Origin: a virus
DNA: 20,228 nucleotides
IMG/VR virus record: IMGVR_UViG_3300042291_000277
Coordinates: 1-20,228 of that record
Strand: one strand, 5' to 3'
How positions within the stretch are numbered: position 1 is the stretch's first letter; every line of letters begins with the position of its first letter. The notes beneath the pieces are model-generated. The model ran no database searches. It was given only the letters and a program-made list of their open reading frames with translations, and was not told the DNA's origin. The translations under genes and the position numbers were made by a program. Shown here piece after piece: positions 107 through 18,000 of this stretch.

Positions 107-3100
107 TTATTTGTTTTCTAATAATGTTACTTTGGCTGATAGTTCTTGTATGGCTTTTACTAAGACAGGTATAATAAATTTCTCGTTAACACGAAGTGGA
201 TTATTAATTATTGTATCTCCTATTGTAATAGAATTACCCCCAAACGATTCTATTGATTCTGGTATTACTTGTTGTACTTCTTGTGCGACAAATCCTAACA
301 TATCTTTACCATCTTCACTTGGTTCAAATCCATCTACCCAATTAAACTTAACAGGATTTAATGCTGATATAGCATTTAAACCATAAGTGGTTGTACTTAT
401 ATTTTTCTTTAATCTAATATCAGAAGCATTATAAATATTTGTTCCAGATGGTGCGCCAATACTACCATTAGTACTTATTCTCATTCTTTCACTTGCATTT
501 GCTCCTTGATCTCCTGAATATACAAATGATAATGGAGTGCTTCCAAAATAAATTTGACTTCTCCAATCGCCTGAACCATAGGTTGAAAGTTGTAATCCAA
601 ATGAATAAGTTTGCGTTCCCGTCTGTCCAGTATTAGCAGAGTTTGTATCAGTTGATAACATAAATCCTGGCTCAATTGCTTGAACATGAACTCTTTGTGC
701 AATGCTTCCTCCAATTGAACCAGTACTTGATGGGGTAAATGTTACACCATTAATCAATACTGCTTGTAATCTACTTTGTGGCGAACTTGTTCCAATACCT
801 ATACTACCATTATTTTTAAATACACCTAATTGAGTTGCTCCATCAAACCATCTAAATATATCATTTGCTCCATTTGATGTTTTTGCAATCAATGCAACTG
901 CTCCTGTACTAGTACCTTCAACTGCAACTTCAGTATGTAATCTTGCACTTGGAGTACTTGTTCCAATTCCTACGTTGCCAGTATTTAAAATACGAATTCT
1001 CTCCGTATTATTAGTTTCAAAAATTAAAGGATGATTTGTAGTTGTAGATAAAAAACTACTTGATGTGCTTGCTATTAATCTAACTTTAACTGTACTATTT
1101 TCTGCAAACAATTCTGTTGATGTAGCTGAATTAACATAAGCCCTAACACTACCAGCAACCTCTAATTTAGTTGCAGGACTTGTAGTCCCAATGCCAACAT
1201 TAGTTCCATTATCATAAATTAAACTATTTCCTATCGTACCACTTGCAGTAAATTTAGGCACATAATTAGCAGTTCCTGATCCGCTTATGCCATTAACACT
1301 TGCTGTGTAGTTAATACTTTGAACTTGGTCATTAACAGTAGAAGCAATTGTAAGAACAAATGTAGTTCCGTTAGTAGCAGTAAATTCAGAAGATGTTAAT
1401 TTAGATCCATTTACATAAACATCTAAAAGACCTACAACATATCCTCCAGTTACTGTAAATGTTGTCTGTCCTGCAGTTGCAGTAAAATCTTGAAGATTTC
1501 TTGAATTAGGATCAGCAGTTAAAGTCCAAGACCTATCAGCAGATAAATCATAGGCAGTACCGTTAATTGTTAAACTTCTTGATGTAGGAACACCACCTAA
1601 ACCTGTTAAAGTGTAAGTAGGAATATTTAAAACATTAGAAACTAATGTAGATGCTCCAGAACTTCCAGTTGTAGTTAAACTTGTAATTCTATTTGTATAA
1701 GCAGTAGTCCAGTTACTTTGAATTGCATCTGTTGGTATTGAATAACCTGCTGCATAAGTCAATGCTAATGTTCCAGAAGTTGTAATTGGAGAACCTGTAA
1801 TTGATAAACCTGTAGGAACACTTAATGCAACCGATGTAACCGTTCCAACATTAGTTGTATAGCCATCTGGATTGCTTGCTAAATAATAAGTTGAATTATC
1901 ATAAGATATTGTTGTTCCACTTATTTTAACAAAACCAGTACCACTTAAAGCATTTTGTTTGCCATTAAAAGTAGTCCAATCAGTAGAACTTAATGCACCT
2001 CTATTTGTTGCAGATGCAGTAGGTATGTTTAAGGTTATTACTGGTGTTGTAGTTCCTGTCGCAACTGAACTTGACACATCTGATCCTGTTGTACCTAATG
2101 TCAATGCAGCAACACTTGTAACCGTTCCAACACTCCAAGATCTGTCTGCAGTTAAATCATAAGCAGTGCCATTAATGGTAAGGCTTCTTGCAGCATTTGC
2201 AGGTGTATAACCTAAAACTGTTGCAATTGATTTTTTCTCCCAAAGACTTGTAGTTGTATTATAAAACAACCCATCATTATTTGTAGGTGATTGCGCAGAT
2301 ACATTATGCAGTTCATCCATCTCATAGCCGTTCTGTATGCGAACTTCTATTTGACCTAATGAAACATGGGATCTTGTAACAACTCCCACATACACTAAAT
2401 GTGCAGGGGCATATTGCTTAGTTGTAGTATATTCTCCAGCAGTAGTAGATGAAAGATATAGTTGTTGCCCTTCTGTAAATGCAGATGTATCTAAACCAAT
2501 TAAATCACCCATAACCACAACATAACCTGTTGCATTATTAGCAATATTTGCTTGACATAATCCAAAGGTCTGTGCAGATGTAGCATCACCTGTAGCAATA
2601 GCCTTGCTTACAACAGGATTATTTCCTGTCGCACCACTTATGTAAATAACCGTTCCTTTTGTTAAGGTTGCACCTGTTTGATTCCTTATAAGCCTAACTA
2701 ATGTGCCTGCTTGTCCAGCAACAGGAAAAGCAATTAAACTTCCATCACCTGCTACATATTGAGTTGTATCTCCTGTAGGATTTGGATAGTAAGTAGCAGT
2801 ATCGTAGGAAATTGTACCTGCAGTTGATTTAACAAATCCTGTGCCTGTTAAATTATTTTGCTTAGTATTTAAAGCATTCTGTAAGTCAGTTTGATTAGAC
2901 AATGTTCCTGTAATTCCACCCCATATAGTTCCAACCGTAGGGGAAACCTCGATGTATGTAGCACCAGACCAACGATAAATCTTATTGGTATCTAATGCAA
3001 CATAAATTTTACCTGTTTCCCCACTTGCAGGAAACCCTGCTAAATTAGCATATTCTAAAACGTCATCTACATAGGAAGGTAGTTGTGATGCAGGAACTAA

Positions 3101-4591
3101 ACCGCCAGAATCAAGACTTGCATATCCATTTGCTACACCTTTATATGCAGTATTCTCTGGTGTATATCCAAGAGCAGATGTAACATTGTTACTTGTAAGA
3201 GATAATGTACCACCTAATGTAAGATTTCCACTTGTTGTAACAGATCCACTTAAACTTAAACCACTAACTGTTCCTGTCCCACCTACACTTGTGACTGTTC
3301 CAACATTGCTTGTGTAACCGTTTGGATTTGTAGCATTGTATGGTGTATATCCTAAAGCAGTAGTAACATCTGAACTACTTAATGTAATAGCACCTGTTCT
3401 TGTATTAAAACTTGTAACACCACCTTGATAAGCAGGTATGTTTAAAATACCAGTAGTATTATCATAAGTAGCACTACCACTTGTCCCTGTTGTAGTTAGG
3501 CTTATGGCATTCCTTGACCTTGTATTTGTATAATATAAATTTGTGTCTTCAGTAACTAAAGCAGTTGTGTAATCTCCAGCAGTAGGAGTTATTGCACCTG
3601 TCCTTGTATTAAATGATGTAACACCACTCGCTATTGTCCAACTTCTGTTTGCAGTTAAATCATAAGTTGTTCCATTGATAGTGATTGTCCTTGCATCTGT
3701 AACAGGGGTAAACCCTAATGCAGTCGTAACATCACCACTTGTTAATGTGATTGCTCCAGTCCTTGTATTGAATGATGTTACACCACCTAAATAAGCAGGC
3801 ACATTTAAAATACCTGTTATATTGTCGTATGTTGCAGCACCCGATGTTCCTGTTGTAGTTAAACTAATTGAACTCCTTGATCTTGCATTAGTAAAATATA
3901 AGTTTGTGCCTTCAGCAACTGCAGTTGTAACTAATGATTGAAAGGTTTTATCCCCTCTATAATATTGGTTTGATGTGCCAGCAGTAATTGTTGGCTCTTT
4001 ACCATTTAATGCAGTTTGAGTTGCAGTACTTATTGGTTTGTTTAAATCAGTAGTATTATCAACATTGCCTAAACCCACCATTGATTTAGTAATACCAGAA
4101 ACAGTTCCTGTAAAAGTTGGAGATTCTAAAGGTGCTTTAGTGTCTAAGGCAGTTTGAGTTGCTGAACTAATTGGCTTATTAACATCACTTGTGTTGTCAA
4201 CATTAGATAAACCAACCATTGATTTGGTTATTCCACTAACAGTACCAGTAAATGTAGGTGATGCTAATGGTGCTTTTAAATTTAAAGCAGTTTGTAGATC
4301 AGTTTGATTGGATAAAGTACCTGTAATTGTTCCCCAAGATGTAACTGAATTAACTTGGATATAAGCAGAACCATTCCAACGATACATTAAACTTGTATCA
4401 TTAGTAATATAAAGAGTAGTTGAATCACCAACTACAGGTAATGCAGCATAACTACTTACTAAATAATAATTAGAACCGACAATATTACCCGATGTATTTG
4501 ATACATTAATTGTAACTAAATTAGGTGTTGCATTAATTTGAACATTATCCGAATTATCGGTTACTGTTATATCAATTATATCGTTAGCCAT
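107..4591 (-). CDS. Tail fibre / receptor-binding protein with C-terminal peptidase S74 chaperone domain
   Basis: 1494-residue virion protein expected to form a trimeric fibre that contacts the host surface. In order: an N-terminal adaptor (about 1-85); two tandem SPTFTGTVSGITKSMVGL repeats (about 105-195); three copies of a VTSFNTRTGAIT unit and several SLTINGTAYDL units; a conserved fibre domain (about 627-770, from VRLIRNQTGATLTKGTV to IQNGYEMDELHNVSAQSP); a TAGQTTFTVTGGY module (about 1035-1095); three G-I-G-T-x-S-P stalk motifs (about 1130, 1203 and 1262); and an S74 domain (about 1390-1494) beginning SDIRLKKNI. In characterised S74 domains, which fold as a trimeric chaperone and then release themselves, a Ser followed five residues later by Lys forms the cleavage dyad. 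Ser1390 and Lys1395 fit that spacing. The start overlaps the upstream stop by one base (TAATG). The fibre role is secure, the receptor unknown. Confidence 0.9.
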   Translation of the reverse strand: MANDIIDITVTDNSDNVQINATPNLVTINVSNTSGNIVGSNYYLVSSYAALPVVGDSTTLYITNDTSLMYRWNGSAYIQVNSVTSWGTITGTLSNQTDLQTALNLKAPLASPTFTGTVSGITKSMVGLSNVDNTSDVNKPISSATQTALDTKAPLESPTFTGTVSGITKSMVGLGNVDNTTDLNKPISTATQTALNGKEPTITAGTSNQYYRGDKTFQSLVTTAVAEGTNLYFTNARSRSSISLTTTGTSGAATYDNITGILNVPAYLGGVTSFNTRTGAITLTSGDVTTALGFTPVTDARTITINGTTYDLTANRSWTIASGVTSFNTRTGAITPTAGDYTTALVTEDTNLYYTNTRSRNAISLTTTGTSGSATYDNTTGILNIPAYQGGVTSFNTRTGAITLSSSDVTTALGYTPYNATNPNGYTSNVGTVTSVGGTGTVSGLSLSGSVTTSGNLTLGGTLSLTSNNVTSALGYTPENTAYKGVANGYASLDSGGLVPASQLPSYVDDVLEYANLAGFPASGETGKIYVALDTNKIYRWSGATYIEVSPTVGTIWGGITGTLSNQTDLQNALNTKQNNLTGTGFVKSTAGTISYDTATYYPNPTGDTTQYVAGDGSLIAFPVAGQAGTLVRLIRNQTGATLTKGTVIYISGATGNNPVVSKAIATGDATSAQTFGLCQANIANNATGYVVVMGDLIGLDTSAFTEGQQLYLSSTTAGEYTTTKQYAPAHLVYVGVVTRSHVSLGQIEVRIQNGYEMDELHNVSAQSPTNNDGLFYNTTTSLWEKKSIATVLGYTPANAARSLTINGTAYDLTADRSWSVGTVTSVAALTLGTTGSDVSSSVATGTTTPVITLNIPTASATNRGALSSTDWTTFNGKQNALSGTGFVKISGTTISYDNSTYYLASNPDGYTTNVGTVTSVALSVPTGLSITGSPITTSGTLALTYAAGYSIPTDAIQSNWTTAYTNRITSLTTTGSSGASTLVSNVLNIPTYTLTGLGGVPTSRSLTINGTAYDLSADRSWTLTADPNSRNLQDFTATAGQTTFTVTGGYVVGLLDVYVNGSKLTSSEFTATNGTTFVLTIASTVNDQVQSINYTASVNGISGSGTANYVPKFTASGTIGNSLIYDNGTNVGIGTTSPATKLEVAGSVRAYVNSATSTELFAENSTVKVRLIASTSSSFLSTTTNHPLIFETNNTERIRILNTGNVGIGTSTPSARLHTEVAVEGTSTGAVALIAKTSNGANDIFRWFDGATQLGVFKNNGSIGIGTSSPQSRLQAVLINGVTFTPSSTGSIGGSIAQRVHVQAIEPGFMLSTDTNSANTGQTGTQTYSFGLQLSTYGSGDWRSQIYFGSTPLSFVYSGDQGANASERMRISTNGSIGAPSGTNIYNASDIRLKKNISTTTYGLNAISALNPVKFNWVDGFEPSEDGKDMLGFVAQEVQQVIPESIESFGGNSITIGDTIINNPLRVNEKFIIPVLVKAIQELSAKVTLLENK
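4005..4277 (-). repeat. Tandem ~45-codon repeat in the fibre gene
   Basis: Two adjacent coding repeats lie at about 4141-4277 and 4005-4140. Each encodes SPTFTGTVSGITKSMVGL, then NVDNT, then NKPIS and ATQTAL. The proteins are nearly identical while the DNA differs at many third codon positions, so this is a conserved structural repeat rather than a fresh duplication. Such repeats are typical of phage fibre shafts. Confidence 0.75.
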
Positions 4592-13082: not shown

Positions 13083-13682
13083 TTATGAATTCAATTGAAA
13101 TAAAATCATACATTTATCATTATAATGAGGAAATCCTTCTTGACAATCTTCATTTATTAAATATATTGGATTTAAATTAAATGGACTTATCATTAAATTT
13201 ATACATTTCCAACCTCCATCTTCTATATCAGGATTGAAATCCCATTTTGTAAAAGATGTTGCTAATAGATATTTAGATCCACTTTCTTTACAATTTTTTA
13301 AAGCAAGTAATACATTGTCATTACTTAAATGACCTAAGCAATCCCTAACAAAAATTAAATCAACTTTAGGCAATATATCTTTAGTTAAATCTAATAATCT
13401 AAAATCAATTTGATTATATAATTCTTTATTTTTTTCAACTAATGGTTCTACTATATCTGCGCCTATGTAAGAAGTACCACATAAATCAACACTTTTCATC
13501 CAATTATAATCGCCACATGGTAGATCTAAAATAGATTTAATGTTAAATTTTTGTATTAATACAGGTAATTCTTTTCTAATTACTTTAGTATTTTGCATTT
13601 CACTACCACCACCACTAACACTTTCTGGTGAACACCATAAATTATTTTCGTAAATTTCTGTAAACTTTTTTTTTACACTCAT
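13083..13682 (-). CDS. Class I SAM-dependent methyltransferase
   Basis: 199-residue enzyme with a Rossmann-type methyltransferase layout. It has a lead-in FTEIYENNLWCSPESVSGGGS; motif I ILDLPCGDYNW (about 51-61, replacing the usual DxGxG); an acidic post-II residue in YIGADIVEP (Asp76); a motif IV-like block VDLIFVRDCLGHLS (about 107-120); and a following strand SKYLLATSF. The protein family often sits in glycan or surface-modification gene groups and in phages. The substrate cannot be read from sequence. DNA-methylase motifs (DPPY, NPPY) are absent, so a sugar, protein or small-molecule substrate is likelier than DNA. It follows the glycosyltransferase gene by 15 bp and probably acts with it. 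Confidence 0.75.
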   Translation of the reverse strand: MSVKKKFTEIYENNLWCSPESVSGGGSEMQNTKVIRKELPVLIQKFNIKSILDLPCGDYNWMKSVDLCGTSYIGADIVEPLVEKNKELYNQIDFRLLDLTKDILPKVDLIFVRDCLGHLSNDNVLLALKNCKESGSKYLLATSFTKWDFNPDIEDGGWKCINLMISPFNLNPIYLINEDCQEGFPHYNDKCMILFQLNS

Positions 13683-13697
13683 AATTGTTTGTTTGTT

Positions 13698-14621
13698 TTA
13701 AAGTAATGGTGAATTTAAACCTGCTTTTTGCACTTCATTATAATAATAATAACTACTTCTATTTTTATCTAAATCTAAATTAGTATTGTAAGGCAGTTTA
13801 TGTGTAAATTCTCCTTTAAAAAACATTCCACTTTTTGAATCTGCTACACCTGCATTATGAAGAATCTTATATTTAACCGAATCCGATATATCGCTTGTAG
13901 ACCATCCAAAATCTAATTCCTTAACTACCTTTGTTTGATGTCCAAAGAACCAAGCATTGTAAAGCAATGACCACATACCAGCAGTCCATTTTTGTATTGG
14001 ATAATCGTTTTCATATTTAGATACATGGTAAGGTTCTTTGTTTATAAAATATTGATATAAACTAATTGAATCCTTTTCAACTTTATCCCAAAAATTATAG
14101 TCTGTTCCCTTTACTATGTATTGTGCGCCTCCGCTATGATCATTCATTAGTTTAGGAATTAATGTAGGAATCCCTACAATCCTACACATATCTATTAATA
14201 GATCTTCACCCTTTTGCATGATATAGTCATAATTGATATAACTATTTGTATCACTTAAATACCAAACATCACCTTTTTCAAATTGTGAATAATCTGGTGT
14301 ACCTGTAAATACTATATCCGAATCATGCAAAAATAAAACTTCATCTTTTAATGCAGGATTAGATGCAAGATGTTGTTTCATTAGATTAAAATAAATAGCG
14401 GGAATATAACTGGTATTTTCCCTTGTGTCTTTATAAAAGAAAAACCTAATGGTTGGATAATGTTCTTGCAAAATTCTCCATTTTGTTAAATCCTCATTAG
14501 TAAATCCCAATACTATATCTATTTGATTAGGATTAATTCCATGCGACATGAAATTATTTATGACAGTTTCTACTTGCCATAAATAATAATCATTCGCAGG
14601 TTGACAACATATATATCTCAT
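13698..14621 (-). CDS. Glycosyltransferase (GT-A-like, DxD)
   Basis: 307-residue soluble protein with a GT-A-type layout. It has an N-terminal nucleotide-binding-like strand (MRYICCQPANDYY); a metal-binding DxD in LFLHDSDIVFTG (Asp100, Asp102); an acceptor-loop-like DHSGGAQYIVKG (about 161-172); WTAGMWSLLYNAWFFG (about 212-227); and a late His in KILHNAG (His255) that could complete metal binding. The DxD, SGGAQY and W-x-x-x-M-W pattern reminds me of eukaryotic-type peptidyl Ser/hydroxyproline glycosyltransferases, but this is a motif impression only. The gene starts 1 bp after the Thr-rich tail protein and is followed by a methyltransferase. I infer that it glycosylates a virion protein, with the adjacent Thr-rich protein the prime candidate. 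Host surface glycan modification is the alternative. Confidence 0.7.
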   Translation of the reverse strand: MRYICCQPANDYYLWQVETVINNFMSHGINPNQIDIVLGFTNEDLTKWRILQEHYPTIRFFFYKDTRENTSYIPAIYFNLMKQHLASNPALKDEVLFLHDSDIVFTGTPDYSQFEKGDVWYLSDTNSYINYDYIMQKGEDLLIDMCRIVGIPTLIPKLMNDHSGGAQYIVKGTDYNFWDKVEKDSISLYQYFINKEPYHVSKYENDYPIQKWTAGMWSLLYNAWFFGHQTKVVKELDFGWSTSDISDSVKYKILHNAGVADSKSGMFFKGEFTHKLPYNTNLDLDKNRSSYYYYNEVQKAGLNSPLL

Positions 14622-14622
14622 A

Positions 14623-17600
14623 TTATGAACATGAACCTTGTGGTAAACTTACACTTATTGCGCCTCCAGCAGTTACCGTTCCTTGTCTTGCGCATATAGT
14701 TACTGTTCCAAGATAACCTAATTCAACTCCATAATTCCAAGTTCCATTGCAAGACTGATAATCATAATAATCCGAATATTCAGTATCATAATTTATCAAA
14801 GTATATTGTTGACAATTAGGAGCAGCAGTAGTAGTTGTAGTTGTCGTTGGCGCAGCCGTAGTCGTAGTTGTGGTAGTAGTTGTCGTGTATCCACAAGCGG
14901 GATCGTTATAAGCAATCACCGAATTATAAGTTCCACAAGATCCATCTGCAAAAATACCAATTTTGTTAAAATCAGGTGCGCCTCCACAAAACTCGCCTAT
15001 GTATGTACCGTAAGGAGTGCAAGTTGTTGTAGTCGTTGTTGTAGATGTAGTTGTTGGCGCAGCAGTAGTTGTAGTCGTAGTAGGTGCAGCAGTAGTTGTC
15101 GTAGTAGTTGTTGTGTAACCACAAGCAGGATCGTTATAAGCTATAACTGATTGATATTCTCCACAAGACCCATCGGCAAATACACCAATCTTGTTATAGT
15201 CTGGCGCACCTCCACAGAACTCACGAATATAAGTTCCATAAGGAGAACAAGTAGTTGTGGAAGTTGTAGTAGTAGTACAAGAGGTTGCTATAACACTATT
15301 AATCTGATTGCTAAAATTACTATGTGTTGCTCTTTGTACATATCTAATAATTCCATCACCATTTACAAAATAATATCCTGTTGTGTAATTAGTTGTTGCA
15401 AAGAATGGAATCGGATTGAAAATTGAGCAATCCTCAATATTAACATCATAACGCAAGAAAGTATATCTTGGAGGTAATGTAGTTGTAGTTGTGGAAGTAG
15501 TTGTAGTAAATCCACAGGCAGGATCGTTATAAGCTATTACAGATTGGTATTCACCGCATGAACCATCTGCAAATACCCCTATTTTATTAAAGTCTGGTGC
15601 GCCACCGCAGAACTCATATAGGTAAGTTCCATAAGGAGGGCAGGTAGTTGTAGTAGTTGTTGTTGTTGCACAACTTGAATTTACAATACTATTAATCTGA
15701 TTTGTAAAATTAGTATGCACTCCATTTATTAAATATCTTGTAATACCATCTCCATTAATAATTTTAAATCCATCTGCATAAGATGTGTATGCCCAGAAAG
15801 GAATTGGATTAGATGTAGAACAATCAAAACTACTAACATCAAAACGGAAATATGTAAATCTTGGTGCTTCAGTAGTAGTACTTGTGGTTGTAGTACTTGT
15901 GGTGCTTGTACTTGTACTTGTAGTCGTTGTACTTGTACTTGTGGTACTTGTGCTTGTACTCGTAGTGCTTGTTGTTGGAGTAGCAGTAGTAGTTGTTGTT
16001 GTCGCACTTAAAGTAATATTTCTGAAATCAGACATTAATTCAAGACTTGTTTCTCCTGTTGTTAATTCTGTCTGATAAGAATTAATAATATACCTCTTAT
16101 CTCTAATTACTATCTTGTCATTTAAGGCAAGTTTAGACAATAGAAATATAGGTAAAATTGCTTTTATCTTCATTAGTCTTGCTTTCTGATTAAATGTATT
16201 TGTAAGGTATGCTGAATAGTAATTTTGAAATAATGAATTTTGCTCAATTTTATTAGTAAAAGTTGATTGTTCTGCTCCCCAATTTATAGTACTAACGATA
16301 GAAGATACTAAAGTATCTTGACCAAATAAGTTATAAGTTGTAGCAGTTGCACTTGATGTACCGTCATCAAAATAATATGTTTTTGGAGATGTCAAAGTTT
16401 GAATCACTCCATAATCATAAAGAATAACAGGCTTGGGTATATAACCACTATAATCAAATTTAATAGAATACCCTACTTGTAAATTCGTATCTGTGAATTT
16501 AGTAAATGGCATATTTTCAAAAGGCAATTCAATAGAATATTCTTCACCATCATTATCAATCTCATATTTTAAATCTCCGTATGGTATATCAGATTGAGAT
16601 AAAAATCTTGTTGCTAATAAGTTTTCGCATTCCTCATAATTAAAATTAAAAGTCTTATAAGGTCTTACCCTTTCTAAATCTATTTCATCCGTTTGGCAAT
16701 ATTCTGAAATATCATAGGTTTGCCCTGCTGAATACCATTCCTCAAGTTGTTCAACATAATAAGTAATTCCATCATTAGAATAACAGGTAAGATTAAACAT
16801 TTTTAATAATCCACTAAAGAAATCTTCTGCTTTTAATTCTGGCATATAATCGCCAATATTTAAAGTCGTTGTTGTTGTTTGTGGTGTGCTTTGTGTTGCA
16901 ACCACATCAATGCTTGCCCCTGATCCACTATTAATTTCAAAAGTATAAACAGATGTAAATGTTAACGCACTTGTTGAAGATACAAAAAAAGTATAAGCAC
17001 CTGAATCAACAAAAGCAATATCTAATCTTATGGGAAATCCAGTTGGACTTGTAAGAGCAGTTTGCTCATTTACTTTAATCCCATTTTTATAAACTGAAAA
17101 ATTAAATGTAATACCACTACCACTTGTAAAATCAATATCTATATAATTTTTACTTACATAAGCTGGTGCAAGAGGTTGGGTAAAATTTAAAACATTAGTT
17201 GCTAAATCGAAAATGTCTGATGTTCCAGTAGTACTTGATTTAGATTGAAAATATATTCTATTATCAGATCCTTTTTGAACAAATGTATCTGTATTTTTTA
17301 GCCACAAGAAAGCATTAGTAAATTTTGAATTACTTAAAAAACTTCCACTTAATGTAATACCTATTTGAGTTGCAATAGATTCAAGTATCTTGCTTATTCT
17401 CATTGCAGGGAATAAATCTAAATACGAAATTGGAGTTCCTACCTTACTTATGTCGTAATTACTTACATCTGTTCCATTGGTATTATATTGCCAAACATTC
17501 TTCGAAGATATTAAAGGAAATTTAACATCAAGTCCAACATTACCAGTAACTCTTGTTTTAACTATTGCACCTGTATATGTAAAGTTGTATGCTGAATAAT

Positions 17601-18000
17601 CAAAGTCCCTTAAAAATCTATTATTAAATTTATCTTTTAATGATATAAGAGATCCAAAGAAAGTCAATGTGTAATTATCAATATCACCTTTTTTATAACT
17701 TGCCTTTTCTAATTGTAACTTTCCTTTCCTAAATGGTAATGTATCAATTTCAATATAAGCATCTTTTCTTTTGGTGGCATTAAATGCAGAATCTAAACTA
17801 TTTTCATACCAATGTTTGAAGATCGCATTATTAGTTTTTGTCGCAGGAATGGTAAACGATTGACTAAAATCTGTAAAGACTTTAGATATGTCATTTATAT
17901 TTTGAATTGAACTATTGATTGAAATATTTTCATCTTCAAACAATTCAAGTCTTTTTGCCAACCCGTCATCACCATAAACAAAAATGCTTACATTAATCAT
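14623..18000 (-). CDS. Tal-like tail/baseplate protein fused to Thr-linked cysteine modules (probable adhesin)
   Basis: 1125-residue virion protein with two parts. Residues 1-660 resemble Bacteroidetes phage baseplate/Tal-like proteins: INVSIFVYGDDGLAKRLELF, ISKVFTDFSQSFTIPATKTNN, FRKGKLQLEKASYKKG, later GDYMPELKAEDFFSGLLKMFNL and EQLEEWYSAGQTYDISEYC. From about residue 664 the chain is low-complexity Thr/Ser linkers alternating with modules: A1 (FTYFRFDVSSFDC to NSSC), B1, A2, B2, B3, then a distinct C-terminal cap ending SLPQGSCS. B modules run PYGTY, EFCGGAPD, NKIG, FADGSCG, SVIAYNDPACG. The gene overlaps the Dit-like gene by 4 bp (ATGA) and is followed 1 bp later by the glycosyltransferase. 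The first part should sit at the tail tip, the second extend outward as a receptor binder. Confidence 0.78.
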   Translation of the reverse strand: MINVSIFVYGDDGLAKRLELFEDENISINSSIQNINDISKVFTDFSQSFTIPATKTNNAIFKHWYENSLDSAFNATKRKDAYIEIDTLPFRKGKLQLEKASYKKGDIDNYTLTFFGSLISLKDKFNNRFLRDFDYSAYNFTYTGAIVKTRVTGNVGLDVKFPLISSKNVWQYNTNGTDVSNYDISKVGTPISYLDLFPAMRISKILESIATQIGITLSGSFLSNSKFTNAFLWLKNTDTFVQKGSDNRIYFQSKSSTTGTSDIFDLATNVLNFTQPLAPAYVSKNYIDIDFTSGSGITFNFSVYKNGIKVNEQTALTSPTGFPIRLDIAFVDSGAYTFFVSSTSALTFTSVYTFEINSGSGASIDVVATQSTPQTTTTTLNIGDYMPELKAEDFFSGLLKMFNLTCYSNDGITYYVEQLEEWYSAGQTYDISEYCQTDEIDLERVRPYKTFNFNYEECENLLATRFLSQSDIPYGDLKYEIDNDGEEYSIELPFENMPFTKFTDTNLQVGYSIKFDYSGYIPKPVILYDYGVIQTLTSPKTYYFDDGTSSATATTYNLFGQDTLVSSIVSTINWGAEQSTFTNKIEQNSLFQNYYSAYLTNTFNQKARLMKIKAILPIFLLSKLALNDKIVIRDKRYIINSYQTELTTGETSLELMSDFRNITLSATTTTTTATPTTSTTSTSTSTTSTSTTTTSTSTSTTSTTTTSTTTEAPRFTYFRFDVSSFDCSTSNPIPFWAYTSYADGFKIINGDGITRYLINGVHTNFTNQINSIVNSSCATTTTTTTTCPPYGTYLYEFCGGAPDFNKIGVFADGSCGEYQSVIAYNDPACGFTTTTSTTTTTLPPRYTFLRYDVNIEDCSIFNPIPFFATTNYTTGYYFVNGDGIIRYVQRATHSNFSNQINSVIATSCTTTTTSTTTCSPYGTYIREFCGGAPDYNKIGVFADGSCGEYQSVIAYNDPACGYTTTTTTTTAAPTTTTTTAAPTTTSTTTTTTTCTPYGTYIGEFCGGAPDFNKIGIFADGSCGTYNSVIAYNDPACGYTTTTTTTTTTAAPTTTTTTTAAPNCQQYTLINYDTEYSDYYDYQSCNGTWNYGVELGYLGTVTICARQGTVTAGGAISVSLPQGSCS
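14816..16008 (-). repeat. Modular repeat region: Thr-rich linkers and A/B cysteine modules
   Basis: In protein order: linker (15863-16008, Thr/Ser only); A1 (about 15672-15866); linker; B1 (about 15510-15645); linker; A2 (about 15287-15477); linker; B2 (about 15116-15249); a long linker with AAP punctuation (about 15020-15118); B3 (about 14889-15020); linker (14816-14887). B modules are almost identical as proteins yet differ at many synonymous sites. Only the 14 bp ggatcgttataagc is unchanged in all three. Linker DNA is built of ACA/ACT/ACG triplets and would be prone to length change by slippage or recombination. Confidence 0.85.

Follow-up and report, generated by a model that had tools for sequence, protein, structure and literature searches.

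Poly-threonine tracts of phage virion proteins travel with a GT8-like glycosyltransferase that probably glycosylates them

The window, the whole 20,228-base stretch of viral DNA analysed here (IMG/VR virus record IMGVR_UViG_3300042291_000277), has all of its main genes on the minus strand, among them those for a virion (tail) protein with a threonine-rich extension, a glycosyltransferase (GT) and a methyltransferase (MT; Table 1). Analysis of this three-gene locus and its relatives makes it very probable that the GT O-glycosylates Thr tracts in the phage's own virion proteins, with the MT as an optional partner. When relatives of the N-terminal part of the tail protein were fetched from viral contigs, the GT was present in 15/15 resolvable loci of orthologues that carry the Thr-rich extension and have enough sequence beyond the gene, and in none of ~60 orthologues (about 45-60% identical) without the extension. 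The whole contigs of 27 extension-less orthologues were searched, which revealed the GT in 0/27 and a run of seven Thr codons in 0/27. Taken together, these counts indicate that the GT and the Thr-rich extension come together and, because no sister-phage contig of the 27 holds such a run, that the tracts in the window lie far above chance. Relatives that keep the GT after the Thr-rich part is gone, named beforehand as an observation that would speak against self-glycosylation, were not seen in this family.

The initial annotation of the locus had suggested a co-occurrence test of the GT and MT with Thr-linker proteins across phage genomes; for the GT this co-occurrence was found, extending to the capsid, tail-tube and tail proteins of unrelated phages. 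Across 86 GT loci taken both from viral contigs and from phage records, 66/86 had a Thr-rich gene directly upstream of the GT, whereas the three genes that come next downstream were Thr-rich in 1/85, 1/79 and 0/77 (Fisher's test of upstream against pooled downstream genes, 2e-48; the loci are related and the p-value is indicative only). A Thr-rich stretch lay within 76/78 of the GT loci that have at least 2 kb of upstream sequence. Upstream genes that failed the stricter first Thr score can hold Thr/Pro/Ala tracts (L022, L025, L027), or else the tract is found one or two genes further up. The order is reversed in L252, L255, L258 and L260, where a poly-Thr open reading frame (ORF) of 81-93 aa sits just downstream of the GT.

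GT homologues in isolated phages come mostly from phages of Gram-positive hosts and share ~31-37% identity with the window GT, and the homologue in Chryseobacterium phage MA9V-3 reaches 41% identity. In annotated isolates the GT lies directly behind the major capsid gene, the major tail gene or another small gene, mostly inside the virion structural region. The tail-tube protein of phiFL1A ends in TTTTTSTTTTTTSSTTTTTTTQASSK and a second head-region protein of this phage (gp45) bears Thr blocks; PLE3 encodes a 125-aa protein rich in TTTTTTTVKP, phage 1706 encodes proteins ending in TTTTTTTTTTHHD, the tail-tube protein of bIL285 ends in KTTTTTTTTTRHD, and R3.3, Semele and VPE25 likewise contain poly-Thr. 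No run of at least four Thr was present in the examined proteins of Javan47, phiJL-1, Javan563 and EauS-123, which have orthologous tail-tube proteins and fall outside the GT set. A prophage scan using one genome per species yielded 74 loci, and poly-Thr was found in 34/34 Bacillota GT loci from the genome scan, often on several separate proteins per phage. These tracts typically form the C-terminal 20-30 residues, both in the capsid and tail-tube proteins and in a 105-aa head protein; the capsid and tail-tube identity of examples is backed by Pfam Phage_capsid and Phage_TTP_1. As tracts thus occur on major capsid and tail-tube proteins, the narrower proposal of the initial annotation, that the phage modifies specifically its adhesin, is not supported.

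We also considered the distribution of both features within one protein family. For the tail-tube family, gathered from viral contigs and scored by script, 19 members had both poly-Thr and the GT, 54 had neither, one had poly-Thr only and none had the GT only, with six unresolved (Fisher 9e-17). On the best tree, which has 75 rows and leaves the tail out of the alignment, the tail-tube poly-Thr switches between presence and absence at least 12 times and the GT does so 14 times. The only mismatches are L474 and L482, whose GT comes after a small poly-Thr protein of its own. In L417 and L470 the GT is split into several ORFs and the poly-Thr tails are kept, representing either recent pseudogenes or sequencing errors. 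Since the GT and the Thr-rich gene usually adjoin, the two could have travelled jointly by hitch-hiking, with poly-Thr serving as a mere flexible spacer or decoration and the GT having another target; secreted Bacilli proteins carry Thr-rich spacers without this GT, in keeping with such a role. However, in many GT-positive phages two or three distinct virion proteins carry tracts, some of them six genes away, and GT-negative tail-tube orthologues are without tracts. Adjacency alone is therefore insufficient, and we regard hitch-hiking as unlikely.

The converse relationship is looser. A pattern scan for TTTTTTTAAP that was blind to the GT retrieved 117 ORFs. Where short fetched stretches had at least 1 kb downstream, the GT was present in 21/87 poly-Thr loci, often within 100 bases, and when larger poly-Thr phage contigs were searched whole it was present in 18/27. 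A strict converse, with a GT beside every poly-Thr protein, was rejected on these counts; poly-Thr is a strong though not an absolute predictor of the GT. Among 85 neighbours of GT-negative poly-Thr genes (L186-L305), four matched Glycos_transf_2 and one GlcNAc, and radical SAM/SPASM proteins were also found near some GT-negative poly-Thr genes; these are possible alternative modifying enzymes. In a sample of 399 evenly drawn Bacilli genomes, two contained the GT, one being the query genome, as compared with 18 of the 27 larger poly-Thr phage contigs; 50 of these genomes contained eight-Thr-codon runs somewhere. Of the runs inspected, the one that lies C-terminally in a small virion-like ORF comes from the other GT-positive genome, and the rest lay mostly in secreted or unrelated proteins or were out of frame.

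Residues 1-300 of the GT match PHROG 4417 over its full length (profile search, E 1.3e-71). Neither Pfam nor NCBIfam offers a family for the GT, and PHROG 4417 is absent from both; a name taken from Pfam was rejected, as the sole hint, L544_NTransf, was below cut-off and arose in one sequence only. An AlphaFold2 model built from 38 homologues (mean predicted local distance difference test score, pLDDT, 95.6) has a GT-A, GT8-like fold, and its best structural matches are glycogenin, LgtC, Skp1 galactosyltransferase, UGGT and GlyE (VIA-align Z of 15.3 for glycogenin, 15.2 for LgtC, 15.0 for Skp1 galactosyltransferase and 14 for GlyE). Several of these act on proteins, which counts in favour of a protein acceptor. 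The DxD motif recognized by the initial annotation is well conserved: neither D100 nor D102 varies among 38 aligned homologues or among 17 more diverse ones. His255 and Gly258 are invariant in the same two sets. In GT8 enzymes, DxD and a His bind the metal, and we take the H-x-x-G spacing at residues 255-258, compared by sequence spacing, to be that of the GT8 C-terminal metal-binding motif. The GT resembles GT8-type GT-A enzymes such as glycogenin, LgtC, GlyE and LARGE1 in its fold, in its DxD and in the H-x-x-G that is kept invariant close to the C-terminus, but differs from them in having no significant sequence match to solved structures (best E 0.13 in a profile search of PDB sequences, and that match not a GT8 enzyme), no Pfam or NCBIfam family and a putative acceptor. 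The GT is a direct member of the PHROG 4417 / 'prophage pi2 protein 34' proteins, which are annotated as being of unknown function and for which the poly-Thr link and the GT-A fold are reported in the present analysis.

Distant homologues of the GT, mostly about 480-590 aa long, are encoded in Bacteroidota chromosomes (Sphingobacterium-, Pedobacter- and Chitinophaga-type; L339-L375). Their cluster neighbours include GG-leader precursor peptides (TIGR04149-like), LanC-like proteins and C39 peptidase ABC transporters, and in one cluster a lantibiotic dehydratase lies near the homologue. One homologue has a second, galactosyltransferase-type domain (Glyco_transf_7C), and some of the precursor peptides themselves hold TTTTTT (L352, L371). 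This lanthipeptide-like context is consistent with a family whose substrates are peptides made by the ribosome. It also bears on whether the GT might instead alter the host cell surface, modifying its wall polysaccharide or its lipopolysaccharide, for instance as a barrier to superinfection. Phage-encoded glycosyltransferases that alter the host O-antigen are well known, which counts for such a role, and none of the present results backs it. The GT is soluble and single-domain, sits in the virion structural operon beside capsid and tail genes in unrelated phages and is tightly tied to poly-Thr, and its homologues in clusters for ribosomally synthesized and post-translationally modified peptides suggest peptide acceptors; we therefore consider host-surface modification very improbable. 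Poly-Thr is likely a portable 'glycotag', in which short Thr runs added to capsid, tail-tube, tail or small virion proteins mark these for O-glycosylation by a dedicated GT8-like PHROG 4417 enzyme that moves with the tag between Bacteroidota and Bacillota phages and shares ancestry with the lanthipeptide-cluster enzymes.

Within the window, residues 11-673 of the tail protein match PHROG 38559 (unknown function), and the remainder is the Thr-rich extension, which is missing from more distant orthologues. In this C-terminal part, six Thr-rich tracts alternate with Cys-containing repeat domains; the last 455 residues contain the six tracts, 118 Thr and 40 Ser. Hydroxyl residues predominate in the tracts (~74-78% Thr, 11-13% Ser), and the Thr codons are mixed (ACT 48, ACA 46, ACG 10, ACC 6), so that the tracts are not simple products of DNA slippage. 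The tail protein thereby shows the repeated Pro/Thr/Ser-rich tracts of mucin-type sequences. The initial annotation had described six Thr-rich linkers punctuated with AAP: all six are present, but AAP occurs only four times, always in the last two tracts. An imperfect tandem duplication within the tail gene (15092-15864, period 393, 73% match) identifies the Cys-containing domains between the tracts as repeats.

Table 1. Genes, Thr-rich tracts and predicted motifs of the three-gene locus in the window
Feature	Position	Strand	Description
Tail protein gene	14623-18000	-	1125 aa; virion (tail) protein; PHROG 38559 match
GT gene	13698-14621	-	307 aa; predicted GT-A fold, GT8-like glycosyltransferase; PHROG 4417
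MT gene	13083-13682	-	199 aa; class I S-adenosylmethionine (SAM)-dependent methyltransferase; PHROG 3382
Thr-rich tract 1	15865-16014	-	residues 663-712
Thr-rich tract 2	15637-15678	-	residues 775-788
Thr-rich tract 3	15472-15513	-	residues 830-843
Thr-rich tract 4	15241-15288	-	residues 905-920
Thr-rich tract 5	15013-15120	-	residues 961-996; with AAP
Thr-rich tract 6	14821-14892	-	residues 1037-1060; with AAP
DxD motif D100-S-D102 of GT	14316-14324	-	metal/nucleotide-sugar motif, predicted
H255-N-A-G258 of GT	13848-13859	-	H and G invariant in homologues
SAM-binding motif region DLPCGDYNW of MT	13500-13526	-	from sequence

The ORF coordinates agree with the gene order first described, a tail protein followed one nucleotide on by a DxD glycosyltransferase and then a class I methyltransferase, with the single base 14622 separating the tail-protein stop from the GT. 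The further statement that these genes precede the next promoter-like motif proved uninformative: the region holds 53 such motifs versus 46.7 ± 6.7 in shuffles, which is chance level, and promoter-like motifs were rejected as evidence for an operon border. The neighbourhood is a virion structural region with portal-like, protease-like and tail fibre genes. Positions 107-4591 of the window encode a tail-fibre-like protein of 1494 aa whose C-terminus carries an endosialidase-type chaperone domain (Peptidase_S74, E 6.5e-13).

The assignment of the third gene as a class I methyltransferase is upheld by a match of residues 6-195 to PHROG 3382 (profile search, E 7.4e-51) and by the predicted fold, which Foldseek places with SAM-dependent methyltransferases (pLDDT 72.9, a lower-confidence model). 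Asp53, Pro55, Cys56, Gly57 and Asp58 are invariant in 13 homologues. Most GT loci are without the MT (29 ORF hits, the window included), none of the 34 Bacillota GT loci from the genome scan has it, and an obligatory GT and MT pair was rejected because of this minority distribution. The possibility raised by the initial annotation, that methylation caps the glycan, is not supported by this distribution. Among loci that were mostly fetched by GT or MT similarity, close MT relatives in IMG/VR nearly all start at or within ~500 bp behind the GT. More distant relatives are surrounded by GTs in mycobacteriophages Ariel and prophiGD91-2 or belong to a cyanophage sugar cluster, and the genes that follow the GT in other phages include several glycosyltransferases and methyltransferases, as well as epimerases. 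From this genomic proximity to GTs, a role as an optional companion of the GT is plausible for the MT, perhaps that of a sugar methylase. The alternative is that it acts on protein or an unrelated substrate and has no functional tie to the GT; the small share of GT loci with an MT speaks for this, as does the moderate quality of the MT model. The positions of its close and distant relatives, and the company of other GTs and MTs behind the GT, argue against it, and we consider it somewhat unlikely.

We propose that the GT would act as a soluble, metal-dependent GT-A/GT8-like enzyme that draws a nucleotide sugar from the infected host and places sugars on the hydroxyls that Thr (and Ser) offer within disordered Thr-rich tracts, the tracts belonging to virion proteins of the same phage. 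In the phage of the window, the acceptor would be the C-terminal extension of the tail protein, and the MT probably adds a methyl group to the sugar; certain other phages may use additional enzymes to lengthen or trim the glycan. The outcome would be a mucin-like glycan brush on the particle, and the benefit to the phage might, speculatively, be shielding, stiffening or binding. Several points weigh against this proposal. We infer the acceptor role of the tracts, and the glycan is known only by prediction. Membership of the GT in GT8 is not significant by sequence, either in the PDB profile search or in Pfam. Viewed by itself, the tail-protein family may owe its link between the GT and Thr to one evolutionary event, and the well-supported branches of the tail-tube tree give 4-6 independent pairs, none discordant, which are too few for a significant sign test. 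L413 has poly-Thr and no GT in the fetched stretch, and 9/27 of the larger poly-Thr phage contigs are without such a GT, although these contigs may be incomplete or use another GT.

Virion glycosylation has been established for mycobacteriophages (Che8, Rita and others) by Freeman et al. 2023, as that work is described in PMC11256854 and PMC13313380, and an O-methyltransferase/GT module of Corndog is discussed in PMC4351075. Like the system proposed here, that of the mycobacteriophages employs phage-encoded GTs, often with a methyltransferase, that target the phage's own capsid or tail, and the MT of the GT/GT/kinase/MT module of Ariel is related to the window MT. In contrast, the mycobacteriophage regions that we fetched (L091, L092) contain no gene matching the window GT family, and the system described here is distinguished by its association with poly-Thr, its often single GT and its occurrence in Bacteroidota and Bacillota phages. 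In a literature search of partial coverage, we did not find poly-Thr tracts described as sites of phage glycosylation, nor PHROG 4417 described as a glycosyltransferase.

A separate parallel concerns how some tracts may be expressed. In 9183 (L087:7600-8010), VPE25 (L496:7700-7870) and SA2 (L086:7560-7930), the capsid or tail-tube gene is followed, just after its stop codon, by a poly-Thr stretch in a different frame; in bIL285 (L089:7850-8010) the stretch that follows the stop of such a gene is in frame. Judging from the sequence, programmed frameshifting or readthrough could give a minority of subunits long Thr tails. The tail-tube protein of SPP1 gains a C-terminal extension by frameshift (PMC8718954), and 9183, VPE25 and SA2 share with it a possible minority extension of this kind on a tail-tube or capsid protein; in these phages, however, the frameshift that we infer from sequence would append a poly-Thr tract rather than an Ig-like (FN3) domain.

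Our analysis points to the pairing of poly-Thr with a GT8-like enzyme as a widespread strategy, apparently not described before, by which phages sugar-coat themselves. Many phage proteins from the environment contain poly-Thr stretches, and the annotation of PHROG 4417 reads 'unknown function'; the link between them gives both a concrete proposed role. If the enzyme truly glycosylates plain poly-Thr, it would be a possible tool for the sugar-tagging of proteins. Poly-Thr would also provide a simple sequence marker that predicts which particles and proteins are sugar-coated, and phage self-glycosylation would extend from mycobacteriophages to phages of Bacillota and Bacteroidota.

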